64,000 nucleotides of DNA, taken from assembly GCF_001625215.2 (NCBI RefSeq), contig NC_030385.2, positions 31,645,598 through 31,709,597 on the forward strand. Reading direction: 5' to 3'. This document shows, piece by piece, positions 1-47,253 of the stretch. Origin of the DNA: Daucus carota subsp. sativus. Lineage: Eukaryota > Streptophyta > Magnoliopsida > Apiales > Apiaceae. Within the stretch, counting starts at the first letter, position 1. Each line of letters starts with the position of its first letter. The notes beneath the pieces were generated by a model. The model did no database searches, was not told the origin of the DNA, and was given only the letters and a program-made list of their open reading frames with translations. A program made the translations under genes and the position numbers.

Positions 1-1168
1 TTTTATGTTTTTGAAAAAATTTTCGTTAAAAACTCTCTTACATGCAAAAAATTTCCACAGTATTTGTTTCTGGATACCTTCATTGGAAGAAGGGCTTTCC
101 CAACAATTCCAAGCCCCAGATATGTTTCATGGAACTGCTACAATTTGGATGTTCTTGAGGAAATCATGATTCAAAAAAATTGCATACAAAATGGGGAGCT
201 GAGTATTCCTGAGATTGACTATTCTGCACTGCAAGGCTGCCAGAGAAAGGTCTTAGAATAAATTATTATATAATGTTTTTGTATTGGTTAATAAACGTCT
301 CTTTAATTTTTTTTACGTTATATTTAAACTCATCACGAAAACACTTTTTCTGAATCTCTGCAGTGCTTGACTGATCCCATCGAGCATGAAGATGATGACA
401 GTAGCATCATACCAGAGGTGAAAAACGTTTGTTACCGCATGTACTCTCAAAATAATTTCAAGGACATATTTTTTTTTATATTTTTTTGCCTTATACTTAT
501 ATGAATGTTATTTTTTTCAAACATCTGTCTTTATTTTCTATTTTTAAGAAGGACAAAGAAATTAATTCTTCTTCAAGGGAGCATTTGGGTGAACCAGAGA
601 TGGACAATATCACAAAGGTTTTTGTCCATAAACTATTATTGTCACAAATACGGTTATCATCTTTTTTTAGATGACTCCATTGCTCTAATTTTCAGGACCC
701 AAGTGTCAAGGACACTGTTGAGAACAAGTGCGAAGCAAGTTCTGAAAGACATAATCATCAGGTTCCTACTAGATAATTCACTTATGTCCTTTCCGAAAAA
801 TTCTCAACACTGCCTTATTTCTGTACAATAAAAAATTCTCAACACTGCAATATTTCAACTTGTAGTATTGCTAAATAATCTTTAAAACACTATTAAAAGA
901 TAACATTGAATGTGATATAACTAAAAATGGTAAGTATAGGTAATCAATGTTTTATTTGGATTATTAATCAACTTTCAAATTTGATTTGTTTTATATACAG
1001 GGGAATCTAATTGTGTTGGAATCTCTGTTAGAGTCATACAAGAGACTTCAACAAACGTTCATGCTACAGATGTCATGTCTAAAGAATGAAATGATAGAAG
1101 ACGAAAATGTTGAACGTATAAGGAGAGCTTTCATCAACATGAATGACACTGCAAATATGTCACTGTAA
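1..1168 (+). CDS. C-terminal exons of a ULP1-associated (MULE-type) gene, 5' part outside window
   Basis: Five exons can be read with GT/AG borders: about 61-249, 364-417, 549-617, 696-761 and 1001-1168, ending in TAA. The first and last are clearly homologous to exons of the gene at 19279-29288. The first begins with a FLDTFIGRR-like stretch matching FLDSFIGRN there. The last (VLESLLESYKRLQQTF) matches VDSLLASYQSVQQTF and ends in a short coiled coil. The upstream protease and plant-specific domains, if present, lie before the window. The function of this C-terminal region is unknown. Splice sites look intact, so it may be expressed, but only the tail is visible. It lies directly upstream of, and in the same direction as, the small coiled-coil gene array. 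Confidence 0.65.
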
Positions 1169-1989
1169 TAGATCAGTTTTTCTCTTATCATCAAAATTTG
1201 GCGTGGAATGTGAAGGAGTGTATTGATGTTATTAATCTGGCCTATCGATATGAACAGGCATTATTTCTTTTGGTTTTTTATTAACCAAATCGAATTACAA
1301 GATGGTTCTGTGTTGCAGGGACGGCCAAAAATCAGATTGCCCCTTTTTGAAGTCATTTTACTCGTCAAATGTTGTTATTTTTAGTTTGTTTGTTCAAGAA
1401 CAACACGCTGATGAATTTACTGAACACCCAGAAGAATATTTGTATAAGGAAAAAACGATATAATGTTGTTTTTTAACATTTTTGAATGTGTTTTTGTATT
1501 GGATATAAGTGATTTTTGAATCTTTGTATAATTGATTTTTGTTAGATGTTCTTCGAGGCTTTTATAGAGATAAAAAAAAACTGACTATTGGACTACCCCC
1601 AGGATTTGCCCACAACTTTCTCCACGCATTTAATACATGCATGTATTGGGTTGTTTTTTTTTTTTTAAAATGTTGCACTATTCATTTTAATTTTTTTACT
1701 AATTATAACTCATTTTTATCACAAATAATGAATACAAAAAGTCTATTTTTTTAAATTAGGAGTATCTTTGAAATAGATTTACATCAGAATACGTAAGAGA
1801 ACACTAGAGTAAAATCAAACTGACAAGATTTTAAGACCATTCTGGGTTTTTTCCTATATAGAAGTTATTATGGCTACAATGCCTACAGCCTCTATTTTAT
1901 TCTCTTATTTGAAATGTATCTTGTGATAGTCCATTATAATACTAAATACTTACCATATAATAAATAAAGAAGATCAAAAGTCAATTCTA
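1169..1989. other. Intergenic, no gene seen
   Basis: AT-rich sequence between the ULP1-associated tail and the first coiled-coil gene. Short ORFs here have no recognisable family or splice context. I see no repeat with clear ends. Confidence 0.6.
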
Positions 1990-2074
1990 AATTTATCTTT
2001 ATAAACCCTCGGCTACAAACCCATTGAAGAGTTAACCCACTTTATAATTTCCAAACCTAACCCTTTTTATACCA
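1990..2074 (+). promoter_or_regulatory. Core promoter of the first coiled-coil gene
   Basis: A TATA box (TATAAAC, 2000-2006) lies 75 bases before the ATG at 2075. The leader between them is C- and A-rich, as in the other array members. Confidence 0.45.
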
Positions 2075-2347
2075 ATGGCCTCACAGTCACCGTCAAACCC
2101 CAATCAGATCATCGCCAATAAGAGTGTTTTGGAAGAAAAAATAAAAGACTTGGAGGAGGATAATGCCATTCTTCAAGAGAACATAAGGTTAATGGAAAAT
2201 CAACTCGCGCACCACCAAACTGTGATTGATTTGCTGAAGAAGCATATTGAGGAACGAAGTGCCAGGGGAGTTTCCATTCAAGGTGAAGTCGAAAGCCGGA
2301 AAGCCTCCGATCTTATTCAGGCTGAACGCAAAGAAGATAAGAACTAG
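2075..2347 (+). CDS. Small coiled-coil protein, array member 1 (divergent)
   Basis: A single-exon gene for 90 residues. I do not recognise the family. Residues about 17-58 form a predicted coiled coil with an L/I/V heptad pattern (LEEKIKDLEE, ENIRLMENQ, VIDLLKKHIEER). This aligns with the core of the five other array genes at 3572, 9315, 10955, 13841 and 15214: N-x2-L-x3-I-(K/R)-L-x-E, then L-K-x-H-x-(E/D)-(E/Q)-(R/Q). The C-terminus is shorter and lacks the clear KKRAK or KKRKL basic cluster of its relatives. There is no signal peptide or membrane segment. The ATG is the first after the TATA box. A role in protein-protein interaction is inference only. Confidence 0.7.
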   Translation: MASQSPSNPNQIIANKSVLEEKIKDLEEDNAILQENIRLMENQLAHHQTVIDLLKKHIEERSARGVSIQGEVESRKASDLIQAERKEDKN

Positions 2348-3354
2348 ATAATATTAATTAATTTTCTTTACATGTCGATGTACTATGTAGTCCACGCCAC
2401 CGCGGGGAAAAAAATGAAAAGTCAAGGTTTAACTTAAAGTAATTTTTCTTGATTTATTATTACACATTTTTTCAACGTTGTAAAATGTTTAAAATTAAAA
2501 ACGATGTTTAAAATGACGTTTCTTAATATATTTTTTTACAATCATTATATGTGACACGGGAAAGGCATTATTAGAAAGAACATAAAAAAGAGAATTTAAA
2601 CGAAGAACACCTAATGAAATCTATGCAAAAGGAACATGTATCGGGGATTAGATACGGGTTCCAACATGTGTTCTATTAGGTAGTTTGTAAAACAAAGTTT
2701 CCAGTGCGTGTGATGGAAATGAAACGTTAGGAAATATAAACCGAAGTAACATTGTAATTTTCTAAAATTTTATTTTTTTGACCGTGTTGAATTTGTTTAA
2801 TTTGACATTCATTTTTAAAATGTATTAAATGGATTATATAAAAACATTTATTAAATTTTTGAAATGATTCTTATTGATGAATCACTTTAAGACGCAGTTC
2901 CATATATTGTTCACCAATATTGATCATATACGTTTGTTTTTTTTTTTATTATGACTGTAGTGACTGAAACGTTTACTTTTTTCCTTTCAAGTTTTTTCTG
3001 AATCTTATCTCCGTAACATTTTTGAGATTCTTTTTATTGTTTTCTATAGAACACTCTATAGAAAGATATGGAGATCTAAGCTATGCTCGCTATTTTCTCG
3101 TCCATTCATTTTTCTACAAATATAGAACCACCTGTCAGAGCAGTCATATAAATTTTTTGAAACAAAGTTTAACATAGAGATTAAGTCAAAAAATATGATT
3201 CTTCATGCAAGAAAATTATGTTAAAAATTATTAAAATGATTGTATTCCAGAAAAATATCTTAATTGTAATCGACAGTCGAACAAATAGGATAACATGTTA
3301 TGTGAGATAAGAAAACTAAATATTAAAAAATAAATAGTCATTTTTTTAATTAAA
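2348..3354. other. Intergenic; its second half is duplicated near 10.3 kb
   Basis: No gene is seen. From about 2860 the sequence matches 10320 onward with small indels (for example, around GACGCAGTTCCAT and CCACCTGTCAGAGCAGTCAT). This is the left part of the duplicated unit that carries the subfamily A genes. Confidence 0.65.
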
Positions 3355-3571
3355 ACAGGTGGGTGCACTTAGTGAAGTAAAAAATCAAGAGTCAGTTTTG
3401 TTTAATGCGGTTATACATTGTTTGAAGACAGTTCCTGAATGTAATCCAATAGCCGGTTTATTTTTTGAAGTCTATAAAAGGCATCCGAGTAACGACAAAA
3501 ACTCCCATTCAACTTTCCAAAAAACCAATCTAAAAAACATCCTCAAGCACTTCTCTCTCAAAAAAACAAAG
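3355..3571 (+). promoter_or_regulatory. Conserved subfamily A promoter, copy 1
   Basis: This block is nearly identical to 10737-10954 and recognisably similar to 13620-13840. Shared parts are TTTAATGCGG, a TGACAGT-like or AAGACAGT motif, an ATCCAA element and TATAAAAG at 3473-3480. The TATA box is 99 bases before the ATG. An open frame runs through it from 3359, but copy 2 at 10.7 kb carries an indel that breaks that frame, so the block is best read as promoter and leader. Confidence 0.6.
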
Positions 3572-3907
3572 ATGGATTCAAACACACAGATGAACCTCTT
3601 ACAACTTACTAATGAGAATGCTTCAATGGAGGTAAGAATCAAGATGCTTCAAGCGGAAAACAGTATTCTCGAACACAAGATTAAGCTGATGGAGATTCAG
3701 CAGACGCATGATGAAGCGGTGGTAACAGTTCTTAAGAATCATATTGAAGAACGAAGAGCCTTCAATCGTTTACTGAGGGATGATTCAAATTTTTCTCCAT
3801 CGGAAATGGAGAGACATGAAAAGATTCGTGAAGAAATAATCAACGAACACGAAGCCAAGAAACGTGCAAAGATTTCACCGAACGTGGATGAACAAGAAAA
3901 GAAGTAA
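3572..3907 (+). CDS. Small coiled-coil protein, subfamily A, copy 1
   Basis: A single exon, 111 residues, family unknown. Residues about 5-60 form a coiled coil (LLQLTNENASME, ILEHKIKLMEIQQ, VLKNHIEERRAF). An acidic stretch with LRDDSNF and SPSEMER follows, then a basic cluster (EAKKRAK) that could be a nuclear localisation signal. The start at 3572 is preferred over an in-frame ATG at 3359. The TATA box at 3473 lies between them, and the paralogue at 10955 keeps only the downstream frame. An AATAAA motif near 3965 and the 3' flank are shared with copies 2 and 3. Against copy 2 I count about nine base differences in the coding part, about five of them changing a residue. Function unknown. Confidence 0.75.
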   Translation: MDSNTQMNLLQLTNENASMEVRIKMLQAENSILEHKIKLMEIQQTHDEAVVTVLKNHIEERRAFNRLLRDDSNFSPSEMERHEKIREEIINEHEAKKRAKISPNVDEQEKK

Positions 3908-4868
3908 AATAATTTTTAGCATTAAAAATATGTTTATTTCGTTGTAATCCACTGTCTAACTATGAATAAAAGTTAATGTTTATTTTAATTTGTGTTTTAG
4001 TATAAATGGTGTTTTTTTATTAAAAATTTTTTGTTCTGTGGTATTTTTGCTTTACGACCATTTTTTCCGATTCAGAACATGAATGAAAGATGCACATTTC
4101 TTAATATTCTATTATTTAAATCAAGTTTTTTAGTTTTTTTATGTAAAATACGTGGTCAATAAAATAGTGAAACATAACAAGGAAACGTAACATCATACAT
4201 TCAGTTTGAGGAACACAGCAAAGAACTCTTTTGGGAAAAGGAATTTTTTGATATCTCGGGGGTGTAATTCGAAGCAGTGTTCCATGGGAAGACCTGTAAG
4301 GATGTAATTAATAGAGTAGATGTTTTCTTACCAGAAGCATGCAAAACCTTGACACGGTTCTATGCATCATTTATTTTTATGGGTACTAGTAAAAAAATGT
4401 TATGCTCGGTTGTCATTATATCAAATCTTTAAATTTGTGGCGGTTATATAGGACAAAACATTTAATTCAAGTAAATGAGCATAATTTAAACAAGTCGTTT
4501 TAATACATTGTAAGTAACTCATAAAGAATTAATACAAAATATATTTTTTTAATGTTTAAAATATATTCTTGCTAATATCGAAATGAAACAAATAATGTTA
4601 CACTTTTAAATTCAGAATTCCTCAAAGACGTGTCTAAAGTCGTGGGGTTGTCTAGTGAAGTCGTGTATGCATAACAAAAATCATCAAATAAATTAGAATA
4701 GTTCAAAAATTAGTTTCTTGTTAAGTAATTCAAATAATTTAAACCATATTTTAAAAATTTTCATATTCGGGTACAAGGAACACCCAACAGAACACCTAAC
4801 TTAGCTATAGGGAAGCGCAACATAACGTTGTGCACAAGGAGATGAGGAGGATATCGAGGCGATAGAGT
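3908..4868. other. 3' flank and repeat module, interrupted by the CACTA insertion at 4868
   Basis: This matches 11291-12416 over most of its length, including the polyadenylation region. It ends in the intergenic module (about 4680-4868) that recurs four more times in the array. The target triplet AGT at 4866-4868 is repeated after the transposon at 7440-7442. Confidence 0.6.
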
Positions 4869-5391
4869 CACTACACCATAACTAGCCTTCTACAACAATT
4901 TTCCCCACTGTTGCCGTAGAAGATGTTGCCGTAGCTATCTATTAATCTAGCATGTTACAACAATTTTTAATTACGTTAGCATAGACATAAACAAAATGTT
5001 GCCAAACAATTATATAGGCAAAGAATATTAATTTTAATAAAGAAATATGTAAAGGAAAAGAAAATATTTTTAATAAAAAAATATTTTTAATCAATATTTT
5101 ATATATATGCAGGTCCCACTAAAAAATTGCCACGCTGTTTGAACAACTCAGCTCCAAATTACACTAATTCATCATCGACACTCAGCCCTCTTTCTCAATG
5201 TCGAGAGCTGAAAAATAGGGTTCGAGAGCGGCGAAGAGAGGGCTGGAAATGGAAGCAAGCTGTGAGTTAAGGGAGGATTAAAACTTTATTAGTTCTTGAA
5301 CTGGGGTTGAATTTAATCTTCTTTGATTTAAGGTACTATTCTTACTCGATTTTGTTTCTTGTACCTGTATATGCATATGCCTGTGTATGTA

Positions 5392-5430
<39 letters not shown>

Positions 5431-5872
5431 TCCTTTCTCTCCCTCTCCCTCTCTCCTGAGCTGTTCCTTCTCATGTCTAGGTCAGATTCACTGTTCGATT
5501 TTCGGTTGCATCGCTAATTACTACTAATCACACTCTAGATCCGTGAATCTCGGATACGTGTTCGCCTAATTCAACTCGAATCTGTTGTTAATTTGTTAAT
5601 TAGTGTTTGACTCAGGTCTTGACTTCATTAATTAAGGCTCAGCTACTTGGATAATGTTTATCTTACTTATTGTGTCTATAGCTTGAATGGCCTAATGATA
5701 TAAAACCCCAGGTTAGCTGTAATTTTATTGATTTTTTACATTGTTATTTCTATTTATGCCTCTTTCAAATAATTTGCTCCTCAATCAGGGTAGTATGCAC
5801 TATGCACTTTAAGTATTATTGCTGATATTATTGTCCTGTTTTTCTTGACTAATTGTCCTGTTTTTCTCAAAG

Positions 5873-6313
5873 ATTGGTAGTGCCAGGAAAAATGGAATTC
5901 TTTTAGAAGCCATTTAAATCCTCACAGATCTTGACATGTCGATTAAGAAAGCTTATATTTCTTCTTATGAAAGATGGTTCATGGATGGTAAGTTTAATTA
6001 TCACTAATCCTTTTCAAAAACTTAAACTTTACAATCTTTTTTTTATCACTAATTATGATGTATATTATTTTGTTGGTCACAATTTTTCATTTGAATGATT
6101 TGAATGGAAACAAGTTAATAGATGAAAGTGTAATCGACTACATGGAACAGGTTAATATTATTAACTTCTTAATTTTTGTATTTCTCTATCGGATTAATTA
6201 AGACTGCTACATATATTGTTATTGAATTTGTGTTACTTGTTTTGATTTTACAGTCTCTAGGTAAAATCCAATTTGCTGGATCGAAAGGTATTGAGAGGTT
6301 AACACCGGAGCAG
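5873..6313 (+). pseudogene. Captured fragment of an ACT-domain-repeat (ACR) gene
   Basis: Three exon-like segments occur in order: 5873-5987, about 6083-6150 and 6254-6313. The first encodes GILLEA, LTDLDMSIKKAYISS and RWFMD. The second encodes VFHLNDLNGNKLIDESV and DYMEQ. The third begins SLGKI. This is the N-terminal ACT repeat of plant ACR proteins (ACR4/6/8 type), which sense amino acids and related metabolites. The first segment contains an in-frame stop, and the acceptor of the second reads AA instead of AG, so it cannot make a normal ACR protein. Introns are retained, which means the capture was from genomic DNA, not from mRNA. Confidence 0.75.
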
Positions 6314-6749
6314 GTACTGCCATACTTATATCCACTTATCTTGCTGATTTGTTTGCTTTTATCCAGTAAACTTTAATAATAATTTTAATGTTGTGTGTTA
6401 GTTCCAACACAATATGATTCAGAGACCATTCCAATTCTTGTTGTGCCATCACTTTCTTTTCCTTTTAATAGTTGACATGCTAGTAATTAATTACGAGCAA
6501 TACAGAGCATTATTAATTAATTTTGTTTATGTTTTGTTTCTCTGATCTAGACAGTGATTATAACTTATATTTGGTCTAACCTCTAACAATAGCAAGACGT
6601 TTGTTCTTGGAATCTTGCTTCATGGAAACAAATATTTGAGTGTGGAGTGTTGGTTCAAAGAAACAGGTTTCTGAGTTTAAATCGAATAGCATGCTTTCCT
6701 TGGATTTAGATCAATTGATTGACCCTTCTAATGTTTTGGAACATAATAG

Positions 6750-6970
6750 GTGCTTCTGATTGACAAGTCTGAAAGATTTATCTTTAAGCCAATGTTACAT
6801 GAGCTTCTGAGTGGAGGTATGACTAAAATTAAACATTTACTTGGTTGTATAATGCACCTGCTAACGGACAGAATGTTTAAGTGCAGAAGTAGATTCATGG
6901 GAAATAGCTCCACGGTTTTCAGATCTTCTAGCAAAAACTGGTGTGCAATTTTTACAAGATAGAGTGAAAC
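6750..6970 (+). pseudogene. NDC1: Captured fragment of the NAD(P)H dehydrogenase C1 gene
   Basis: Two exon segments with intact GT/AG borders occur at 6750-6816 and 6887 to about 6970. The first reads VLLIDKSERFIFKPM and HELLSG. The second reads EVDSWEIAPRFSDLL and TGVQFLQDRVK. Both match the region after the N-terminal FAD-binding fold of plant NDC1, the type II NAD(P)H dehydrogenase of plastids and mitochondria involved in plastoquinone and vitamin K1 metabolism. Only about 50 residues are present, so this is a fragment. It lies in the same direction as the ACR fragment and might be joined to it in a chimeric transcript. Confidence 0.8.
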
Positions 6971-7187
6971 TGGTGTGCTATGTTTGCGGTGCTCGGATTC
7001 TTTATGATTTGTTAAGTGTTTGACATAAGTAGTAGTATGGATGTATATTTTGGATGTTTTTGGAATGTAGGGAAATCTATGTATTCAAATAGTACCTTTC
7101 AATTTGATAATTTTTAGAACCTATTGCAATAGTCATATAAAATGTGTTGTACTCGCTTTATATTTACTGTTGTTATCTGTACAGCAG

Positions 7188-7242
7188 TGGGACCCACCAA
7201 ACAGTGGACCTAATATATGGACCCACTGTTTGGTGGGTCCCA
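7188..7242. repeat. 20-base perfect inverted repeat (hairpin) in the right end of the CACTA element
   Basis: Arm 7188-7207 (TGGGACCCACCAAACAGTGG) is the exact reverse complement of 7223-7242, with a 15-base loop. It lies among the subterminal repeats. Confidence 0.85.
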
Positions 7243-7442
7243 TATTTTTTTCAAAATTGTGCCTTTTTGGCAACGAAATTAAGATGTTGCATAAACTGTT
7301 GCCTTTGCTGGCTAAGGCAACGCCAAAAATACTAACAGCCCAAAATCGTTGCCATTGCAAATTTTCAGCCTGCTGCAACAATTTATGGGCCTCTGGCAAC
7401 GTATTTGTAATGTTGCTGAAAGCCATTTACGGCGCAGTGAGT

Positions 7443-9149
7443 TAATGTTTTGCCATATCAGACATTTTTTTTTCGTTAGGTTGTATTAGATGTTCTTTCA
7501 TGGGTTCTAAATGATATTTTGAAAAAAAAAATTAACGCATCGTAAATAATTTTTTTTTACAATGTTTATCAGTTAATGAAAGGTCTGTTTTCCTTTCGAA
7601 ATGATCAACCCGGAAAGAAATCTAGATAAAATGCATTAACGTCATTATTAAATATACCGCTTACCTTTCTAAATATGGAGGTGTAGAGCACTGCCATTAT
7701 TATCGTGACATATATTTTTTCCACCATTTGATTAATCACCAAATTATTTGCTGTACACCTTTTATTACCTTCAGGTAGAATCTAATTATCAAATCACCCT
7801 TTCAATAAATTATAATAATTCAAAAATAATTTTTTTTAAGTAATTCAAAAATAATTTTTTTAATTAATTCACCCAACAGAACACTTAGGTGAACTATTGG
7901 GACGCGCAGCAGAACAAATGTGCATAGTGAGATGAGGAGGATATTACCCAAGTTATATATTACCCAAGATGTGCATAGCTATATTACCCAAGTCTTCTAG
8001 ATGGTTGTATTAGGTGTTCTGTCATGGGTTCTAAATAAAATTGAAAAAATATAAATATTGTCTGACATTTACCATGAGTAACTTGTTGAGGAGTTCTTTC
8101 AACAAAAAACATCACAGGATAAAAAAAAAAAATTAATTGTAACGTGTCGTAAATTAATTTTTTAACAATGTTTTTTATTAGTTAATGAAGGTATGTTCTT
8201 AAATTTCGAAATCTTGATAAAAACTTGATAAATTCCCCCAGTAAGAAATCTAAATAAGCAAATTTAACGTTGTTATTAAATATACCTCGTCCTTTTTCTA
8301 AATCCGAATGTTTAAATCATTACCATGATTATCGTCTATATTTTTTTTCCACCGTATGATTGGTCAGCAAAAACGGATTCTAAATACGGATCCAAGTGAA
8401 ATCTTGTCCATTATGAGAAGCTTGGTAGGTGTTTTTTTCAAGACGCATGCAACCCTCCGTTTTCTGTTCTATTAGAGATTCTGTTTTGCGTACTTGTACC
8501 GTTTACTAGTGTTCTGTTTTAGTCAGTCATCATAACAAACCTTAATTAAAAGTGGTGAGATGGGACAGAACCCTAAAGTTAAATTATTAGTGGTTTTCTG
8601 CTTGCTAGATGAACTTTTTTTTGACGGTGTAAAATTTCTTTGCTAGACACGACATTGCATTTAAGTTTTATTTTTTAAGGCTCTATGTGAACAACACGAA
8701 GAACCTCATGGAGAATTCGGTTTTTTATCGCTAATTGTTGCAAAGTAACAATTTAAAAAATTATAAACATATAAAAATTTTAAAAATTCTAAAACATATA
8801 AAAATCCACTACGAAAAATGAAACGGGACACTTATTTAACAAAAAATTATTTATTTATCTTTTCAAAATTTTTGTAGAAATGTTTAAACTTTAATTTTAC
8901 TAATACGAACGTGATATATTGCTTTGAATAATTCAGAATTATTAAAACTCGGATTAACTTAAATAAAAGCTAAAAAATACTATGAGATAAAAATTGTGGT
9001 AAGAAAACCCGATTTTCTGACCAAAAAAAAATAATTCAAATTTTTAGGGGTAAAAAATGTACATTGAATATTTGATAAAAATGACTCTAGGGGTTAACCT
9101 ATAATACAATCCTTCGTAGACAAAATACATGAATGTATTAAATTTAAAA
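7443..9149. repeat. Gene-free tract built of noncoding tandem modules
   Basis: Modules recur here and at 12.2-13.4 kb. The GTTGTATTAG...CATGGGTTCTAAAT part is at about 7480 and 8003. The CACCRTWTGATT part is at about 7725 and 8350. The CACCCAACAGAACACTTAGG part is at about 7870. From about 8380 to 8720 the sequence matches 14460-14770. No coding gene is seen. Confidence 0.6.
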
Positions 9150-9314
9150 TTATTATTAAGTCGTGTGTAAAGCCGTAGGGTCCATCAAAGGGAGACGTGA
9201 CTGAATTCCAAAAGTCACTTCTTCCTTACTATATAAAACCACAAACAGCACTATGTAACCGCATAAAAAACCAAGTCACAACAACAAATACTACCCAGAG
9301 TCCTATTTTACATC
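9150..9314 (+). promoter_or_regulatory. Conserved subfamily B promoter, copy 1
   Basis: This is nearly identical to 15050-15213. It shares GAAGCC/AAAGCC-GTAGGGTCCATC, GGGAGACGTGACT (with an ACGTG core) and TATAAAA at 9232-9238, 83 bases before the ATG. Confidence 0.55.
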
Positions 9315-9626
9315 ATGTCTTCAGAAGCAGATAAGATGATCCTGGATGCTGTCAAGGAAAACACAAGGATGAAAAAAACCATCACACATCTGGAGGAAGA
9401 AAACAAAAGGCTGAAAAATAAGATTAAATTGCTTGAGATACACCACTCAAACAATGAAAGGATGATAGATTTACTTAAAAGACACAAGGACGAGCAACAG
9501 GCACTCGGTCTTCACATGATAGATCCAACTAAGTTCGAGCCCCCAAATATCGGTAAGAAGAGAAAGTTGGAACATGGTGAAGGAAGCCAAGTTCCCAGGG
9601 ATGAAGGAGAACAGAAGAAAGAATAG
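9315..9626 (+). CDS. Small coiled-coil protein, subfamily B, copy 1
   Basis: A single exon, 103 residues, family unknown. Residues about 10-62 form a coiled coil (LEEENKRLKNKIKLLEIHH, RMIDLLKRHKDEQQALG). A Pro-containing linker (DPTKFEPPNIG) follows, then a strongly basic GKKRKLEHG cluster resembling a nuclear localisation signal and a charged tail. The core aligns with subfamily A (KIKLxE then LKxHxxE), but the C-terminal part is different. It is preceded by a clear TATA box, and the first ATG after it is used. The copy at 15214 has an identical central 38 residues. A nuclear scaffold or dimerising role is inference only. Confidence 0.75.
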   Translation: MSSEADKMILDAVKENTRMKKTITHLEEENKRLKNKIKLLEIHHSNNERMIDLLKRHKDEQQALGLHMIDPTKFEPPNIGKKRKLEHGEGSQVPRDEGEQKKE

Positions 9627-10736
9627 GTTAATTTATATGTATTTTTATTTTGTGTTCTTTGTGAATCTTTTAATCTTCTCATATATGAAAAATATATATG
9701 CTTGAACAAATTAATGTTTTTTTTTCTGTGTGGCTTTGATAATACATGCGATGATATTAAAAAACATAGAACAGAGGAAAAAAAGAGTTTGAGCATCTTT
9801 TATGACGTTATCCATGTAAAATGACTTATTTTTATTCTATTATAAAAAAAAATAAGCATTAATCAAGTAATATATTAACACGAAACAAAAGGCGCGGGGT
9901 TATCGTATTGGAAAAAAAAAATTCCTTTTCAGTTTTTAATTGATTGTGTCTAATCAAAATATGGAATTTTTTAACAACTAACAAAGGAATTAATTATTAT
10001 TGGGAGGTCTTTTGATTTCTTTAAGATTCGTTAAGATGTTCAAGTAAAACAGATCCAGTAAAAAGGATGAAAAGAATTTTGAATTTAACGGAAAACAGAT
10101 TAGTAGAATTAAATGCTGAGTTAATTGACGTTACCCATACTATAAATGATAAAAATTAAAACTACAGAATCGTTTAATTGAATCGTTTCACCATATGTTT
10201 GTTACGAATCAACTATCATTTTGTTCCATATCAAGGATCATTAAAAAGTTAAAAAAATTTTAATTTGTGCCTGGAAAACTGAATATTAAATAATACATAT
10301 TTTAAAAATGAAATATTTTTGAAATGATTCTTATTGATGAATCACTAAAAGACGCAGTTCCATCTATATTTTTTTTTTATTTTTGAGATTCTTTTTATTG
10401 ATTTCAATAGAACACTCTATAGAAAGATATGGAGATCTAAACTATGCTCGCTATTTCTCGTGCATTCATTTTTCTACAAAAATAGAACCACCTGTCAGAG
10501 CAGTCATATATATTTTTTGAAACAAAATTTAACATAGAGATTACGTCAAAAAATATGAGGCGTTAAAAATTTATGTTAAAAATTCATGCAAGAAATTTAT
10601 GTTAAAAATTATTAAAATGATTGTATTTCACAAAAATATCTTAATTGTAATCGTCAGTCCAACAATTAGGATAACGTGTTATGTGAGATAAGAAAACTAG
10701 ATATTAAAAAATAAATACTCGTTTTTTTTTATTAAA
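9627..10736. other. Intergenic; left part duplicated at 15.5-16.2 kb, right part at 2.9-3.35 kb
   Basis: The 3' flank of the subfamily B gene (about 9627-10290) matches 15526-16240. From about 10320 on it matches 2860 onward. The junction between the two duplicated units therefore lies near 10300. No other gene is seen. Confidence 0.6.
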
Positions 10737-10954
10737 ACAGATGGTTGCACTTAGTGAAGTAAAAAATCAAGAGTCAGTTTTGTTTAATGCGGTTATACAT
10801 TGTTTGAAGACAGTTCCTGAATGTAATCCAATAGCCGGTTTATTTTTTGAAGTCTATAAAAGGCATCCGAGTAACAACAAAAACTCCCCATTCAACTTCC
10901 CAAAAAACCAATCTAAAAAACATCCTCAAGCACTTCTCTCTCAAAAAAACAAAG
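10737..10954 (+). promoter_or_regulatory. Conserved subfamily A promoter, copy 2
   Basis: Near-identical to 3355-3571, with TATAAAAG at 10855-10862, 100 bases before the ATG. A small indel shifts the upstream frame relative to copy 1, supporting a noncoding role. Confidence 0.6.
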
Positions 10955-11290
10955 ATGGATTCAAACACACAGATGAATCTCTTACAACTTACTAATGAGA
11001 ATGCTTCAATGGAGGAAAGAATCAAGATGCTTCAAGCGGAAAACAGTATTCTCGAACACAAGATTAAGCTGATGGAGATTCAGCAGACGCATGATGAAGC
11101 GGTGGTAAAAGTTCTTAAGGATCATATTGAAGAACGAAGAGCCTTCAATCGGTTACTGAGGGATGATTCAAATTTTTCTCCATCGGAAATGGAGAGACAT
11201 GAAAAGATTCGTGAAGAAATAATCAACGAACACGAGGCCAAGAAACGGGCAAAGGTTTCACCGAACGTGGATGAACAAGGAAAGAAGTAA
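10955..11290 (+). CDS. Small coiled-coil protein, subfamily A, copy 2
   Basis: A single exon, 111 residues, about 95% identical to the protein at 3572. The differences seen are V/E, T/K, N/D, I/V and E/G substitutions. The coiled coil (residues about 5-60), the LRDDSNF acidic segment and the EAKKRAK basic cluster are all kept. The gene, promoter and 3' flank (AATAAA near 11347) were duplicated as one block from or to the 2.9-4.9 kb unit. Function unknown. Retention of the open frame despite active rearrangement around it suggests it may be under selection, but the divergence is too small to be sure. Confidence 0.75.
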   Translation: MDSNTQMNLLQLTNENASMEERIKMLQAENSILEHKIKLMEIQQTHDEAVVKVLKDHIEERRAFNRLLRDDSNFSPSEMERHEKIREEIINEHEAKKRAKVSPNVDEQGKK

Positions 11291-12225
11291 ATTAATTTTT
11301 AGTATTGAAAATATGTTTATTTTGTTGTAATCCACTGTCTAACTATGAATAAAAGTTAATGTTTATTTTAATTTTGTGTTTTAGTGTAAATGGTTTTTTT
11401 TATTTAAATTTCTTTGTTCTGTAATATTTTTGCTTTACGATCATTTTTTCCGATTCAGAACATGAATGAAAGATGCACATTTCTTAATATTCTATTATTT
11501 AAATCAAGTTTTTAGTTTTTTAATGTAAAAACGTGGTCAATAAAATAGTGAAACATAACAAGGAAACGTAACATCATACATTCAGTCTGAGGAACACAGC
11601 AAAGAACTCTTTTGGGAAAAGGAATTTTTTGATATCTCGGGGGTGTAGTTCGAAGCAGTGTTCCGAGGGAAAGACCTGTAAGGATGTAATTAATAGAGTA
11701 GATGTTTCTTACCAGAAGCATGCAACTTTTGACATGGTTCTATGCATCATTATTTTTATGGGTACTAGTAAAAAATGTTATGCTCAGTTGTCATTATATC
11801 AAATCTTTAAAATACTGGCGGTTATATAGGATAAAACATTTATTCAAGTAAATGGACTACAAATTTGTCAATGTTTGTTATTCTCATTGATTGTTATTCT
11901 CATACAAAATTAAATGTTTTGCCTTTTATAAAAAACATCACAAAAAAATCAATATAAAAATGCATTAAAGTTATTTGATTCAATATAACAAATTTTGTTT
12001 TCTTACAAACTAATGTATAACACACAGCATAATTTAAACAAGTCGTTTTAATACATTGTAAGTAACTCATAACGAATTAATACAGAATATATTTTTTATT
12101 GTTTAAAAAATATTCTTGCGAATATCGAAATGAAACAAATAATGTTACACTTTTAAATTCAGAATTCCTCAAAGACGTGTCTAAATGTCGTGGGGTTTGT
12201 CTAGTGAAGTCGTGTATGCATACCA
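11291..12225. other. Intergenic 3' flank, copy of 3908-4680
   Basis: This is collinear with the unit after the gene at 3572, apart from an insertion of about 170 bases near 11850-12030 that copy 1 lacks. No gene is seen. Confidence 0.6.
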
Positions 12226-13415
12226 AAAATCATCAATGAATTATAATAGTTCAAAAATTAGTTTTTTGTTAACTAATTCAAATAATTTAAAATATCTTTT
12301 AAAATTTTTCATATTCGGATACAAGGAACACCCAACAGAACACCTATCTTAGTTATAGGGAAGCGCAACATAACGTTGTGCACAAGGAGATGAGAAGGAT
12401 ATCGAGGCGATAGAGTTAATCAGACTCGCATTGAACAAAATGTGTGTTAAGTCAATTCAAATTTATTGATTTTCCAGTCAATATTCGTGCTGGACAAATT
12501 TTATTACCCTTCAGGTAGAATCTAATTCTCAAATCACCCTTTCAATAATTACAGTAATTCAAAAATAATTTTTTTTAAGTAATTTAAAAGATTTAAAATA
12601 TTTTTAAAATTACTATAGTCGTAAATAAGAAAACACCCAACAAAACACTTAGGTGAACTATTGGAATCCGCAGCAGAACGATGTGCATAGTTAGATGATA
12701 ATGATATTAACCAGATTATATTACCCCCAAGATGTGCATAGCTATATTACTCAATTTTTTAGATGGTTGTATTAGGTGATCTGTCATGGGTTCTAAATAA
12801 CAATGAAAAAAAAAGGAATATTGTCTTACATTACCATAAGTAACTTGTTCAGGAGTTTTTCCACCAAAAATACATCATAGGATTAAAAAATTATTTTAAC
12901 GTGTCGTAAATTTTTTTGTTTAACAATTCTTTTATTAGTAAAATGAATATATGTTCTTAATTTCGAAATCTCGATAAAAACTTGATAAATTCCCGCAGCG
13001 AGAAATCTAGATAAAAAAATTTAACTTTGTTGTTAAATAAACCTCGTCCTTTTTTTTAAATCTGAGTGTGTAAATCATTACAATGATCTTCGTGTGTGTT
13101 TTTTTCGCACCGTATGATTCGTCAACAAAAACCGGAATGTAAATATGTATTTGTAAATCATTGCCATGATTAACCAAAATTACGTTTTTTCACCGTTTGA
13201 TTAATCAGCAAATTAATTGCTGTACAACCTTATTACCTTCATGTATTATCTAATGCTCAAATCACCCTTCCATTAAATTATATTAATTCGAAATATAATT
13301 TATTTTAAGTAATTCCAAAAATTTAAACTATCTCTTAAAACACTTAGGTGATTTATTTGTATGCCCAACAGAATGATGTGTATAGTTAGATGAGGAGGAT
13401 GTCGAGGCGATGGAG
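12226..13415. repeat. Tandem noncoding modules, three partial copies in a row
   Basis: The motif CACCCAACA(G/A)AACAC followed by a GATGAGGAGGAT-like end appears near 12326-12416 and 13341-13415. A more diverged version is at 12634-12712. Each is preceded by a TTCAAAAATTAGTTT or AAAATAATTT AT-rich block. Together with 4680-4868 and 7795-7945 this gives five copies. The GTTGTATTAGGTGATC part is at about 12766 and the CACCGTTTGATTAATCAGC part at about 13193. I do not recognise it as a named transposon. Confidence 0.6.
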
Positions 13416-13619
13416 TAAAACCTTAACAGATAGATTAAGTTAAGAGAAATAATACCTTATCGAACGATTTACTTATAAATTTTATAAATTTTTTTTTTCA
13501 CAAAAATAAAATATAAGCACTTCCGACCTCATTTTATATTCTACAATGATTTCTCTCATTAAAAAATAGAAAAACAAGGATTTTCGTTTTAACAGATTTA
13601 TGCAGTTAATAAATTTAAC

Positions 13620-13840
13620 CTAAGAGTCAGTTTCAAAGAAATTCAAGAGTCTGATTTTTTTAATGCGGCTATTCATTTGAAGCTGACAGTACATGCATTT
13701 AATCCAAGTCAATTTATTTTTTCAGCTTATAAAAGGGATCCAAGCAAATATCACTCTACACTCATTCAAAAAAACCAAAAAAAACATATCACACAGCGTG
13801 ATCATTTTTCTTCTCAAACAAAATTGATTCAAACAAAGAA
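13620..13840 (+). promoter_or_regulatory. Diverged subfamily A promoter, copy 3
   Basis: It keeps AAGAGTC, TTTAATGCGG, a TGACAGT motif, AATCCAA and TATAAAAG (13728-13735), 113 bases before the ATG. The conserved parts against a diverged background point to functional promoter elements. Confidence 0.55.
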
Positions 13841-14158
13841 ATGAATCTTTTACAACTGAAAAACGAGAATGCTTCGATGGAGCATAAGATAAAGTCTTTG
13901 ATGGAAGAAAATAGCGAACTCGAAGAAAAGATCAAGCTGATGGAGATTCAGCAGGCGAACGATGAAGCTGTGGTAGAAATACTTAAGAATCATGTAGAGG
14001 AGCGAAGAGAATTCAACAGTTTTTTGCGGGATGATTCAAATTTCGAACCAGCTGAAATTGAAAGACGTGCAAAATTACGTGAAGAAATAATCAGCAAACG
14101 TGAAGACACCAAACGTGCAAAAGCTTCACGAGATGTAGAGAAAAAAGTAAAGGATTAG
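13841..14158 (+). CDS. Small coiled-coil protein, subfamily A, copy 3 (older)
   Basis: A single exon, 105 residues. It aligns end to end with the 111-residue proteins but is clearly more diverged. The core reads ENASMEHKIK, LEEKIKLMEIQQANDEAVV and LKNHVEERREF, then LRDDSNFEPAEIERR and a basic TKRAKAS segment. It starts at the residue equivalent to Met 7 of copies 1 and 2. The base before that position does not give an earlier in-frame ATG. The AATAAA motif after the gene (near 14213) is kept. Core residues are conserved while linkers vary, which fits a functional coiled coil. Confidence 0.72.
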   Translation: MNLLQLKNENASMEHKIKSLMEENSELEEKIKLMEIQQANDEAVVEILKNHVEERREFNSFLRDDSNFEPAEIERRAKLREEIISKREDTKRAKASRDVEKKVKD

Positions 14159-15049
14159 GTAAAAAATTATTAGTTTTTGTATTAATCCTGTTGTAAGCAG
14201 CTTTTAAATTATGAATAAAAGTTTTTATATTATTTATTCGATCTCCATTGCAAGTTTTAGAAAACATTAAAATTTTGATAAATGATTCTCTTAACTTATC
14301 AAAATGAGGAATATATCTATATATATCTTTTTCTCCGCATAGGCTTTTTCCTTTGCGAATACAGTCTGTATCCATTTAATTACTCGAGTTTCCAATTAAA
14401 ATTTATTAATCTAGTAAAGAACCAATAAATGAGCCCATATATAGAAAATAAAATTAATGCTTTTTCGGGATCCAAGTGAAATCTTGTTCATTATGAGAAG
14501 GTTAAAAAAAGTCTATGTAATCGAGTAGGTGTTTTTTTCAAGACGCATGCAACCCTCCGTTTTCTGTTCTATGAGAGATTCTGTTTTGCGTACTAGTACC
14601 ATTTACTAGTGTTCTCTTTGGTGAGTTATCATAACAAACTTTTAATTAAAAAGCGATGATATGGGACAGACCCCTAAAGTCAAGTTACTAGTGTGTTTCT
14701 GCTTGATAGACTAACTTTTATTTTTTTAAGGCTCTACATGAACAACACAAAGAACCTCATTGGAAAATACGATTTTTTTTATCCCTAATTGTTGCAAACT
14801 AAAAATTTTAAAAATTATAAACATTCTTATTCAAAACAGAAATACCCTATTTATATCAAATACTACGAGATTATATTTAAATTTGAATAAACATGGTGGT
14901 AAGAAAAACCGATTTTCTAACCCAAAATAAATAATTCGATTTTAGGTGTAAAAAATGTACACTGAATATTGATAAAAATGATTAGATGCTGGTTAACCTA
15001 CAGTACAATCCATGGTAGACAGATACATGAATGTATTAAATATAAAATT
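14159..15049. other. Intergenic; from about 14460 a copy of 8380-9150
   Basis: GGATCCAAGTGAAATCTTG and the stretch around AAGACGCATGCAACCCTCCG are shared with the tract before the first subfamily B gene. No gene is seen. Confidence 0.6.
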
Positions 15050-15213
15050 ATTATTAAGTCGTATGTGAAGCCGTAGGGTCCATCAGGGGAGACGTGACTC
15101 AATTCCAAAAGTTACTTGCTCCTTACTATATAAAACCACAATCAGAACTATGTAACCGCATAAAAAAAATCAAGTCACAACCACAAATCCTACCGAGAGT
15201 TCTATTTTACATA
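15050..15213 (+). promoter_or_regulatory. Conserved subfamily B promoter, copy 2
   Basis: Matches 9150-9314, with GGGAGACGTGACT and TATAAAA at 15129-15135, 85 bases before the ATG. Confidence 0.55.
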
Positions 15214-15525
15214 ATGTCTTCAGAAGCAGATAAGATCATTCTGGATACTATCAACGAGAACACCAAGATGAAAGAAACCGTCACACTTCCGGAGGGAGAA
15301 AACAAAAGGCTGAAAGATAAGATTAAGTTGCTTGAGATACACCACTCAAACAATGAAAGGATGATAGATTTACTTAAGAGACACAAGGACGAGCAACAGG
15401 CGCTCGGTCTTCACATGATAGATCCAACTAAGTTCGCGCCACCCCAAATCGGTAAGAAAAGAAAGTTGGAACACGGTGAAGGAAGTCAAGTTCCCAGGGG
15501 TGAAGGAGAACAGAAGAATGAATAG
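15214..15525 (+). CDS. Small coiled-coil protein, subfamily B, copy 2
   Basis: A single exon, 103 residues. From residue about 36 on it is nearly identical to the protein at 9315: KIKLLEIHHSNNERMIDLL, the Pro linker and GKKRKLEHGEG. The N-terminal third is more diverged. HLEEENK there reads LPEGENK here, which puts a proline and a glycine into the coiled coil and may shorten it. The start at 15214 matches the paralogue. An in-frame ATG at 15094 lies upstream of the TATA box and is not used in this model. Confidence 0.73.
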   Translation: MSSEADKIILDTINENTKMKETVTLPEGENKRLKDKIKLLEIHHSNNERMIDLLKRHKDEQQALGLHMIDPTKFAPPQIGKKRKLEHGEGSQVPRGEGEQKNE

Positions 15526-16680
15526 GTTAATTTATATGTATTTTATTTTGTGTTCTTTGTTAATCTTTTAATCTTCTCCAGTTAATATACATTCTTGAAC
15601 AAGTTAATTTTTTTTTGGGGCTTAATCTTTTAATCTTCTCCAGTTAATACACATGCGATGATATTAAAAAAAACATTGAACAGAGAAAAAAATGAGTTTG
15701 AGCGTCTTTTATGGCGTTATCCATGTAAGATGACTAATATTTTTTGTATTTTTAAAAATAACCATTAATCATGTTATATATTAACACAAAAAAAAAAAAA
15801 GAACGGGGTTATGTTATTGGAAAAAAAAAATTCCTTTTCAGTTTTTAATTGATTGAGTCTAATCAAAATATGGAATTTTTAACAACTAACAAAAGGATTT
15901 TATTAATAATGGGAAGTCTTTTTGAATTCGTTAATATTCGTTAAGATGTTCAGGTAGAACAGATCCAGGTAGAACAGATCCGGTAAAAAAGATGAATAGA
16001 ATTTTGAATTTATCAGAAAACGGATGAGTCGAAATAAATGCTGAGTTAATTGACGTTAACCATATTTAAAATGATAAAAAATTTAAACTATAGAATCGTT
16101 TAATTGAATCGTTTCACCATATGTTTGATACCAATCAACTATCACTTTGTTCCATATCAAAAAGATCATAATAAAAGTTATAATTCTTTAACGTGTTCCC
16201 GGAAAACTGAATATTAAATAATATATATTTAATATTAAATTTTTTTGAATTTTTTAAACGGTCGTTAATTTGTTCAATAAACAAACTTGAAGATCCCACA
16301 AAGGTGAATTCAAAAAAAATATAAAAACAAATTTATTTTTTGAAAATGAAATCCAATAAAAAGCTTAATGTTGTTCGATAACTAAAAACATGTAAAATTT
16401 TTGGTATAATGTGTTTGTTACTATGCTCAAGATAAACGAAGAACACTAAAAAGAAAACCTAGCTAAATGAAACCTTGAAACTTGTAGCAGATTACTGTGC
16501 ATATCGAAGTGTTAGCTTAAATGTTTTTCATGTCACCCCAACCTTTGCATGATTTCTATTAATTGTTAAATAGAGCTATGTTTAATGTGTCATTATAGAA
16601 CATTTTTAATTAGAAGCGTTAAGAGGACACAAACATTTGTATTCCGTTGGAATCAATGTTTATAAATATCGGTTTTTCTA
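15526..16680. other. Intergenic 3' flank of the array
   Basis: Up to about 16240 this is a copy of 9627-10290. After that the sequence is single-copy within the window. No gene is seen. Confidence 0.6.
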
Positions 16681-16853
16681 TGGTGTGCCCATGGGCACAT
16701 GCTAAGCGCGGTAAATTTTTTGCTTGAATCATTTTGATTGGCTCCTATCTAATGATAATGGTGGACCCCCCTGCAAATACACCAACCAAAACCAATCAAG
16801 ATCTCCCAAAAATACAAAAATTTCCGCGCTTAGAATGTAACCATGAGCACACA
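16681..16853. mobile_element. Short MITE-like element with terminal inverted repeats
   Basis: The left end TGGTGTGCCCATGG...CTAAGCGCGG is mirrored by the right end CCGCGCTTAG...CCATGAGCACACA. The arms are about 30 bases with mismatches. CTA flanks both sides (16678-16680 and 16854-16856) and may be a 3-base target duplication. The superfamily is not certain. Confidence 0.6.
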
Positions 16854-17193
16854 CTAGCCAAAACGTTATAATATAAATAAAATAACACAAAAAAGTTATA
16901 AGGGCAACAAAACAGGTTATTTTTTTGATTTTTTGTCTTTTCATTGAAGCATCGTACACAAAAATCGTTGTGGAATATATGCTTATCCCCAAAAAAACTC
17001 TTCGTAAGCAAAAAAACGTATTTAATGAAATTAATGCATGTGATACAGTTTTCAATGAAAAAATCACAGTTTATGGAAATAATATCAACGTTTTTATACT
17101 TGACATAAATTCTGTGTTTACAGAATTTTTTCGACCACCTATATCAAGAGATCTTAGCTATTTGTTTATTTCATATTTTTTTTTCTAGTAGGA

Positions 17194-17691
17194 ATGGCCC
17201 CGTGGAATAAACCGCCCGCTGGTTTTTGGAAGATCAATGTAAGTGGTCATAGTGATGAAGGTATTCGCTCATCTGCAATTGGATGTCTCATGAGGTCAAG
17301 GTCGGGTCATTTTTCCTGTGGATATTACGGGATAGTAGAATATTCAGAGCCTATTTATACAGATCTGTTGGCAATATACTATGGATTTAAGATGGCCGAC
17401 GAGGAAAATGCAAGATACATTGAGGTCGAGTCAGATTCAGCATCAGCTGTTTATCTTGTGAATAACCCTAACCAAAACTCCGAATATTCAGATATCTTAT
17501 TAAACATTCGTAGGTTAAAAGATTTGGCACACCAATCTTGTGTACTTCGGTATGTGGAGAGATCATCGAACCTAATGGCTATCAGAATGTCAGCGTATTC
17601 TTACGAGAAAAGAGTCCCTATTACTCGTCTAAGGTGTTGCCCATCGGATATTTTTCCAGAACTTGCAGCAGATTGGTATTTCTCGTCCTAA
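17194..17691 (+). CDS. RNase H-like (RVT_3-type) domain protein, probably inactive
   Basis: A 165-residue single-exon frame. The pattern W-x-K-P-P-x-G-x-W-K-I-N-V at the N-terminus, then TDLLAIYYGFKMA and VESDSASAVYLV, is that of the plant RNase H-like family (RVT_3) found alone and at the ends of plant LINEs. The first catalytic Asp (NVDG in active members) is Ser here (NVSG). The Glu of the second motif is Asp. The Asp of VESDS is present. The last Asp position (usually N-x-x-A-D) reads NLMAI. Nuclease activity is therefore unlikely. A TAG just before the ATG could be a splice acceptor, so an upstream exon is possible. It could be a LINE-derived remnant or a host gene. Confidence 0.6.
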   Translation: MAPWNKPPAGFWKINVSGHSDEGIRSSAIGCLMRSRSGHFSCGYYGIVEYSEPIYTDLLAIYYGFKMADEENARYIEVESDSASAVYLVNNPNQNSEYSDILLNIRRLKDLAHQSCVLRYVERSSNLMAIRMSAYSYEKRVPITRLRCCPSDIFPELAADWYFSS

Positions 17692-19278
17692 AAAAAAATG
17701 AGTACTTCCTCTTTTCTACAGCTAGTTCTTTTAACAGTTTTTATGTATTTTTATTCCATATGATGTTTACTTTCTTGGACATTTCAATTTCATAATATCT
17801 CCGTAACGAAATATGATATGTATTAGAACGAATGAAAAATAGCTTTTTTATAATGATCATCCTATGGAATCGTTTTTATGAATTATTATATGGGTTATAA
17901 AAATAAGAGATACAGTATCACTCTGAAAAAATTTTATTTTTTTATGAGTATTATTCTGATAAGCTAAAAGATAAGCTAAAAGAACGTTTGATCCATGTTC
18001 TGTTTCTAGAATGGATCTCTTCAAAGTGTTCCAAATACTACATGACTCGGTTATAAATTACAAAGCAAAAACGTTTTTTTATGATGTATTTTTGGTCTAG
18101 ATGTCATACCAATATACAACTCACAGGAAAAAAGGCAAAAATCTTTTTCGATTTTTTAAATTTTAGTTCGATGTAAAGTATTAAATAACATGTGTCTTGA
18201 TTATACGATTCTTTAGAGTGTTCTACGTGTTACCAGACCATGAAAGAACGCCGAGTACAATGGAAAAGGCCAAGAAAAATAATTCCACCTCTATGTTTTT
18301 TAAAAAAATAATATCAGCAGTAAATATGGCAGTATGCAACGGCTATACAAAACATATGAGAAAACAAAAATTCTACATTACATAGTTTCATAACCAATTG
18401 TTTAACAAAAATTAAATGTTAAACTAATAGTATGCTAAGTGAAAGTTAACAAAATTTAAATTCTGTGATATATTAAAAAAAATTGGAAAAAATTAGAAAT
18501 AATGAAAAGTGTAACCGTATCAATAGGTATATACTAGTGAAAAAATCTACTAATGTAAAAATTATACTTATGTGTACACAGTTGTGTGATGGATGCGTAA
18601 AGGTTGCAACAGAATGGATTTCGTAAAATGTTATATTTAGTAGGTTTATATTTAAAAACACCCGTATAAAAAAATAAATGCCCCGTTTTTTTATTTATCC
18701 AATGTTTTCAATGTTTATATTTCTTACAAAATTAATACATACTATTATTCTCTACTTTTTAAAGTTCATTTTTGTAACGTGTTTTGTATTATAAATGCCT
18801 CTGGTCTTGATTGTAATTGATTTTTTTTATACATTCGTAGTGCTTATCTTTTTTGTGTTCCTTAGACATTTTTGCTAAATTTCGAATGAGTATTCACATT
18901 ACGTCTAATTTAATTATATCACACTTTGAAACCAATTTGTAGAGTCACAAATGACTTGACTTGTTTGACAAATTGTAATTATTCCACACTTGGAACGAGA
19001 TTAAAAGAGCATTAAATATGTCTTAGTAAAACTTAATCTGTCAAATGGTCTTAACTCTTAAGAATGCCGGTTTTAGAGGCTAATGTCTTTACTGTTCCAA
19101 ATCACCCTTATTATGTGTTGTACTGCCGCAATTATTGATCATTACACAAAAATCTATTAATCAAATACTCCCGGTGTTCTCTATCCATTTTCTTTTTTGG
19201 ACAAAACACAACTACACTTTTACTCAACTGTTGTTGCAAAAAGAGAACACAGAAGAAAATCAATTAAGCACACACACC
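17692..19278. other. Intergenic, no gene seen
   Basis: AT-rich. It contains one arm (18371-18413) of a direct repeat whose other copy is at 29601-29643. The last few hundred bases should hold the promoter of the gene at 19279. Confidence 0.55.
18371..18413 (+). repeat. 43-base direct repeat, left copy
   Basis: It differs from 29601-29643 at only three positions. The two copies flank the ULP1-type gene. Confidence 0.8.
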
Positions 19279-29288: not shown

Positions 29289-29895
29289 AAATCAAGCACA
29301 TGATTGCAGAGGCAAACTCATCATGATGCTGAACTGTTGTCTTTATCTAATTATGTATTTTGTTGGTATGTGAGACACGAATTATGTCGGTAACTTGTTT
29401 CTGTTTGAACATGGCATATTATTTTGTTAGACCTGCTATTTTAACCATCTGTTCATCCAATTAATCCGTTACCTATAATAAGTTTCTGCCAACCACACTA
29501 ATCCTATAGTGCAATAATACCGATTCTATTAACTATTCCAAATATTGTTCTAGTAGTTTTGTATATTTATAGTAAACTTTTACATTTTTTACATTAAATA
29601 TTCTACATTAAGTAGTTTCCTAACCAATTGTTTAACAAAAATTGGAAGAATAACTAAAAAAAAGGAAGAATTACAAAATTTATTCAAAAACGAAAAATGT
29701 AAAAATGAGAACTACAAATTCAAAACTGTAAAAAAGTAAATAAGTTTAAGGAATCTTTAAAAGAAAACTATAAAATCAGAAATGTATAGGATCCAACTAC
29801 AAATTCATTCAAAATTGAAAAATGTAAAAAAGTTTAATCTCCAACTAACAAACCCAGATTCATATAAAAAATTAAAACAAAACAAAATCGATCAT
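29289..29895. other. Space between two convergent genes
   Basis: AT-rich shared 3' region of the ULP1-type and FAR1-type genes. It holds the right copy of the 43-base direct repeat (29601-29643). Loosely repeated GAAAAATGTAAAAA-like stretches follow at 29690-29840. Confidence 0.6.
29601..29643 (+). repeat. 43-base direct repeat, right copy
   Basis: Partner of 18371-18413 with three mismatches. Confidence 0.8.
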
Positions 29896-32597: not shown

Positions 32598-32936
32598 TGA
32601 TAGACTTGAGCATGAACGTAGAAAAAAATAGAAATATGAACAGGCATCAATCAGGGATGTAGATTGTCTGCATAATCTTTTTAATTAAAAGGAAGGTTTA
32701 ATCATGAATCTGTGATTGATACACTGAAACGTACGTATTTTTATTTTTAACAATTAAACCATTCCATTAACTGCCCTTATACGAATTATACAGGTTTTAT
32801 ACTAATATAACGTATAGTAAATCTGGCCACATATTTAAAACTCATCCAACGGTTCCAGAGCTGGTCTCTCGAGTCTCTCGCATTGCCTCGGTCTCTTTTG
32901 AACCTCCCCCTATATATATATATATCTCGGTTATAT
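32598..32936. other. Upstream region of the FAR1-type gene
   Basis: No gene is seen. It should hold the promoter. I searched for MULE terminal inverted repeats here and in 16.9-19 kb and could not match the two ends. Confidence 0.5.

Positions 32937-36553: not shown

Positions 36554-47253
<10,700 letters not shown>

Follow-up and report, generated by a model that had tools for sequence, protein, structure and literature searches.

Cut-and-paste transposons of plants are thought to be small. DNA transposition is described as falling above ~6 kb of cargo, and for the Pack-MULEs reported in 2004, Mutator-like elements (MULEs) which carry gene fragments, the same account states that none surpassed the 7-kb full element (PMC6431247). 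Two of the described groups combine insertion into (TA)n tracts with runs of G at the ends: the Mutator-like MuTAnT elements of Medicago truncatula, characterized by a Jittery-type transposase and represented by the 4873-bp AutoMuTAnT with its one open reading frame (ORF) (PMC4486113), and the Mutator-like MiM elements of carrot (PMC8227079). The VANDAL MULEs of Arabidopsis are described as having no clear terminal inverted repeats and three genes, VANA, VANB and VANC; VANC proteins are DUF1985 proteins that act as element-specific anti-silencing factors, and their Ulp1-carrying forms have been named Kaonashi or KIU (PMC5735166, PMC10398659, PMC13317346). Here we analyse a stretch of 64,000 nucleotides from Daucus carota subsp. 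sativus (henceforth the window), in which a tandem array of six small genes is, with little room for doubt, the cargo of a giant MULE that targets (TA)n tracts.

The array had been predicted from the sequence as six genes of 90-111 codons on the + strand, and all of them were found where they had been placed, as intact ORFs of one protein family with three subfamilies, A, B and C. Their order, B A C A A C, is continued by a further gene, R: B (2075..2347, a coiled coil of 90 amino acids), A1 (3572..3907, 111 amino acids), gene C1 (9315..9626, 103 amino acids, with a KKRKL cluster), A2 (10955..11290, 111 amino acids), A3 (13841..14158, 105 amino acids), gene C2 (15214..15525, 103 amino acids) and R (17194..17691, +, 165 amino acids), the last encoding an RNase H-like RVT_3 domain that scores above the Pfam cut-off (43.9 bits vs 21.6, E 2.8e-11) and having close relatives in other loci with A, B and C genes. 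That the six genes belong together is evident from ten invariant columns of their six-row protein alignment and from mutual tblastn matches of E 3e-6 or better, while the best other tblastn match in the 64-kb window has an E of 0.04 and no seventh copy was found there. TATA[AT]A boxes, expected 75-113 bases upstream, precede all six genes (at -75, -99, -85, -100, -113 and -87, in gene order); AATAAA, expected in the 3' flanks of subfamily A, follows within 400 bp only the three A genes (3/6), first at +56 to +58. The surrounding DNA is 94% identical between A1 and A2 and 85% between genes C1 and C2. A3 has lost its ancestral start codon, with ATT now at that position and the ORF start shifted six codons downstream, and the stretch homologous to it is missing from the copy at C5:16.14M (a deletion corresponding to window ~13750-14443). 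The extra A and C genes of the window may have arisen later, when genes were duplicated and lost within a single copy of the element.

The genome from which the window comes was searched for relatives (441,086,747 bases in 11 contigs; positions are given as contig:coordinate, the window being C5:31645598-31709597), and the figures below cover the best-scoring candidates, among the matches listed. At E <= 1 there were 55 matches for A2, 54 for gene C1 and 54 for B, in sets that overlap, the subfamilies being related; matches of high identity numbered 22 for A (at least 50%), 19 for C (at least 57%) and 12 for B (at least 72%). A/B/C genes thus identified occupy ~14 loci on eight contigs, usually together with R: C1:8.26M, C2:14.86M, C2:29.87M, C3:32.4M, C4:4.55M, C4:10.9M, C5:16.14M, C5:31.65M (the window), C6:12.69M, C7:14.08M, C7:24.35M, C8:4.43M, C8:9.65M and C8:33.2M, of which the last comprises two gene groups ~100 kb apart. 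Weaker, scattered matches were obtained at C1:22.80M, C2:29.905M, C2:38.92M, C7:19.1M and C9:26.4M. Chance does not explain the array, given how often relatives recur elsewhere in this genome. R is linked with A/B/C: matches of at least 57% identity over at least 95 residues lie at 15 loci, 14 of them A/B/C loci and the fifteenth (C8:32.418M) ~3 kb from a related right element end at C8:32.415M, while the remaining listed matches of that length have at most 34% identity. Short R fragments (26-83 residues, 44-81% identity) are found at seven further loci, four of which have a DUF1985-like match no more than ~5 kb away. At C1, C2:29.87, C6 and C8:4.43, which fall together as group II in the trees described below, the genes follow one another on a single strand as C-A-R-B; at C8:33.27M the order is C-R-B.

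Long repeated blocks that end abruptly enclose the A/B/C loci, and the copies on contigs C1 and C6 are homologous over many kb. When the left flank of the contig C1 copy served as query, the copies of the cluster were seen to begin at one common point, and we compared seven left ends (C1, C2:29.84M, C6, C7:27.78M, C8:4.41M, C8:9.60M and C8:33.26M). Up to a (TA)n tract their flanks are essentially unrelated, with the exception of a 78% identical stretch common to C6 and C8:33.26M; immediately after the tract, six of the seven copies read GGGTCAAGTTCC and one reads GGTCAAGTTCC, all seven being covered by (G)GGTCAAGTTCC. At the other side, window:31900-33700 used as a query matched 19 other loci as far as query position 1020-1026 and not beyond (best 40 of 2745 candidates), and this common stop is again a (TA)n tract, at window 32911..32925. 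Between the right terminus itself (32858..32910, -) and the left end of the contig C1 copy, taken in inverted orientation, identity is ~70%. The same ends in different flanks, at seven left sides and at 19 right sides among those best 40 candidates, place the array within a mobile element. In lying in (TA)n tracts and in having terminal G-runs, this element shows both features of the MuTAnT type.

The window contains the part of this element at 1..32910. Its left end lies outside, near C5:31632900 or ~12.7 kb to the left, an estimate in which the 589-bp distance from exon to end in the contig C1 copy was added to the leftmost DUF1985-like exon (C5:31633545). The whole copy would accordingly measure 45.6 kb, or 39.5 kb without a nested retrotransposon, and the copy at C5:16.1M, estimated from its own leftmost DUF1985-like exon, ~37 kb. 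Where both ends were located, they are 61.4 kb (C1), 68.0 kb (C6), 72.3 kb (C8:9.6M) and 75.9 kb (C2:29.9M) apart, nested insertions included. Two other candidates for the left limit were set aside: across a supposed boundary at C1:8250873 and C6:12703378, seven of eight other copies align with C1 further to the left, only C6 failing to do so, and four copies of group I align across it; a palindromic terminal repeat at L068:4109-4182 is an artefact of (TA)n, the true end being the first base after the tract. Directly left of the giant element, C1:8244900-8246171 (L068 ~2974-4120) is a separate (TA)n-flanked high-copy element of ~1.1 kb with many relatives.

Near the right end, on the - strand, the window encodes a transposase composed of a FAR1 DNA-binding domain (31652..32518, Pfam E 4.1e-17), a MULE DDE domain (31207..31593, PF10551, E 3.8e-21), copies of which lie near right ends, and a SWIM zinc finger part (29896..30540, Pfam E 6e-05). 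Of the 14 A/B/C loci, 12 contain the MULE exon at 71% identity or more, that of C8:4.477M being a fragment, and no match to it was listed at C4:4.55M and C4:10.9M. Further to the left, a DUF1985-like exon of a VANC/Kaonashi-type gene (26902..27573, +), without a Pfam match of its own, is 28-45% identical to five other such exons read from the copies on contigs C1 and C6; these are mutually related with the window exon, and exons of this type recur across the element copies. A stretch at 26309..26388 (+) is 80% identical to a stretch on contig C6 located beside or inside coding DNA of an Ulp1-type peptidase. The element is interrupted at 19496..25593 (+) by a nested long terminal repeat (LTR) retrotransposon, which exhibits 1556-bp LTRs 99.7% identical to each other, TG...CA ends and a possible 4-bp duplication, GTTC; it is young, and a zinc-knuckle gag-like ORF is located at 21243-21710. 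It is probably absent from the copy at C5:16.15M, since the spacing there is shorter by the length of the retrotransposon.

Like MuTAnT and MiM, the giant element is Mutator-like, inserts into (TA)n and bears G-run ends, a likeness of kind; its transposase is of the FAR1/MULE/SWIM composition, that of MuTAnT of the Jittery type. However, it carries many genes, and with 61-76 kb between the ends in four copies it is about ten times larger; with 61.4, 68.0, 72.3 and 75.9 kb, these copies do not conform to the small autonomous MuTAnT type of ~5 kb with a single ORF. Like VANDAL elements it is a MULE that contains DUF1985-like exons and Ulp1-type pieces, but it differs from them in its four to five DUF1985-like exons, the cassette of small genes and the (TA)n targeting. 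Pack-MULEs and giant eukaryotic transposons resemble it as MULEs with extra sequence, whereas the genes carried here are whole and under selection, and its size far exceeds that of Pack-MULEs. Among open PubMed Central papers on MULEs, Ulp1, VANC, (TA)n targeting, carrot and coiled coils, surveyed through listings and passages (supplements, preprints and subscription journals being outside), no report of this cassette was found, and in listings of the same collection the sole match for giant MULEs was a brown-alga paper.

Several observations weigh against the main reading, in which a giant MULE carries the cassette and is helped by it. An element at C7:27.75-27.78M has both ends, 27.2 kb apart, and no A/B/C match. 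The left end of the contig C1 copy and the inverted right end of the window copy agree in 37 of 53 columns, some TA included, a weak match (E 0.031) between different copies; the 8-11 bp target site duplication of MULEs would be hidden inside (TA)n; and the sizes are deduced from the positions of ends. Stops interrupt the MULE-exon matches at 8 of 12 loci, which may be due in part to introns, or to damage. The best Pfam match to DUF1985 (E 0.00022) reaches 21.6 bits vs the 35.1 needed, and the best Ulp1 Peptidase_C48 piece, with exons not joined, 19.4 vs 20.7 bits. Judged from search tables, five of the 15 R loci contain stops and two of the 12 B genes are broken.

The A and C genes are under purifying selection. 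Frames were examined at 21 A and 20 C loci, the truncated L022 being left out and the distant L052 (C1:22.80M) excluded from both the C counts and the analysis of nonsynonymous to synonymous substitution rates (dN/dS); among the 21 A loci 19 have open frames, as do 16 of the 19 C loci counted, which bears out the preservation of frames that had been predicted. The dN/dS comparison that had been suggested was run within the same genome. With only pairs of 0.05 < dS < 1.2 kept, which share branches and are not independent, its median is 0.26 for A (68 of 190 pairs of 20 genes, including L021, whose frame is broken at the end; one pair above 1) and 0.28 for C (94 of 136 pairs of 17 genes; no pair above 1), well below 1, and the A and C proteins are therefore maintained. 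Trees of both subfamilies, compared by eye, display the same grouping, as would be expected if the genes move together: group I comprises C5, C7:24 and C3 (in the C tree also C2:14.86), group II C1, C2:29, C6 and C8, and a looser remainder C7:14, C4 and C8:9.65.

The original prediction had named no known family for these proteins and had described several subfamilies with basic tails, and both statements stood. In Pfam, PHROGs and PDB sequences, relatives of A/B/C were found only at the background level of coiled coils. Two of the six proteins match bZIP_2 over the zipper part with 17-18 bits vs a cut-off of 22.3, and the family profile weakly matches the zipper of HY5 in the PDB; HY5 and designed coiled coils were set aside as relatives, these matches being at background level. 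A/B/C proteins resemble leucine-zipper proteins (bZIP proteins, little zippers) in being short coiled coils with an Asn inside, but differ from bZIP proteins in the subthreshold bZIP_2 score and in that no basic region is apparent by eye ahead of the zipper. A single-sequence structure prediction for A2 comprises a long helix at 3-73 and a second one at 76-100 (mean predicted local distance difference test score 86). All 19 full A proteins contain a basic cluster, as defined by a loose pattern, and all but one of the 16 full C proteins contain KKRKL. A, B and C may be short nuclear coiled-coil proteins that pair. They do not appear to derive from another protein of the element, an origin we discarded because their profile, compared with 1195 ORFs taken from the window and from seven loci, matched only A/B/C genes at E <= 1. 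Nor are they fragments of a known transposon protein, an outcome for which the original prediction had allowed: they are whole, selected genes and match no transposon protein in the libraries searched. Of the selfish, regulatory and defence roles it had offered, the selfish element is the one retained. The array is no free-standing cluster of host genes: it lies inside a giant MULE whose right end, transposase and further genes share the window with it, and A/B/C genes recur at ~14 loci.

Selection and the joint retention of the genes argue that the cassette helps the element, and on balance we favour such a role. The A, B, C and R genes are carried by a giant Mutator-like transposon sitting in TA microsatellites. 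It has G-rich ends, several DUF1985/Ulp1-type genes and, on the minus strand near the right end, the FAR1-MULE-SWIM transposase, and it would be mobilized, in cis or in trans, by its own or a related transposase. A, B and C may pair in the nucleus and counter host silencing as partners of the DUF1985-type proteins; alternatively, they may be structural helpers in the transposition of so long a DNA. Far more tentatively, A/B/C could represent a new class of transposon-encoded proteins, which form a heteromeric complex of coiled coils and license a giant plant MULE. They could do so, for instance, by acting against silencing alongside several VANC-like proteins, or by keeping the ends, which in an element of 40-75 kb are far apart, together for transposition. 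A dispersed MULE with ends tens of kilobases apart, many genes, some of them whole and under selection, and several genes of the DUF1985/Ulp1 type would show that plants possess giant, cargo-carrying DNA transposons, and would provide further candidates for anti-silencing or transposition factors; it also cautions against annotating A, B, C and R as host genes.

About one chance in three is left, in our judgement, to passive cargo, in which a giant MULE captured a host A/B/C/R set from which it has no benefit, the selection being a remnant of the host function or acting for the host. Gene capture is described as frequent in MULEs (PMC13317346), and at least one related element, the above-mentioned one at C7:27.75-27.78M, has no cassette. 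On the other hand, frames stay open with dN/dS of ~0.26-0.28 across many dispersed copies, several subfamilies and R have been kept together at most loci, and the own-genome matches listed, which include weak scattered ones, do not reveal an evident host progenitor. It is very improbable that a host gene cluster was spread by segmental duplication and received transposon pieces nearby only later: some copies are indeed internally rearranged and that on contig C6 breaks at an inner point, but dissimilar flanks meet the same left-end base at (TA)n in seven copies, and the right end common to 19 loci (among the best 40 of 2745 candidates) also lies at (TA)n. An endogenous DNA virus, whose genes would lack introns and have small promoters, would agree with compact genes bearing TATA boxes, but deserves the least credence of all, since none of 98 pattern matches in IMG/VR was confirmed as a relative, PHROGs yielded nothing above noise, and a MULE transposase and TA-flanked ends account for the unit.

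Within the reading of the array as cargo of a giant MULE, the elements without the cassette help to place its acquisition. Besides the one at C7:27.75-27.78M, matches to DUF1985-like genes and the transposase but none to A/B/C occur at C7:11.51-11.53M; related elements can thus do without A/B/C, and the cassette is therefore not required by all members. It looks like an addition of A/B/C/R to one element lineage, loss being also possible. Related sequences were also observed at C3:54976829-54978538, a copy 99% identical to the right end of the window copy, and at C2:31.43-31.47M; these loci hold ends and transposase of related elements or DUF1985-like genes, in both cases with no A/B/C matches nearby.

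To the right of the element, the window comprises a long (GA/CT)n-type microsatellite that gives rise to spurious long ORFs (46849-47290). Outside the element there are also, both on the - strand, an intronless pentatricopeptide repeat (PPR) gene (52539-54287) and an exon encoding an LSD1 zinc finger and a caspase-like domain, i.e. a metacaspase (61000-61596).

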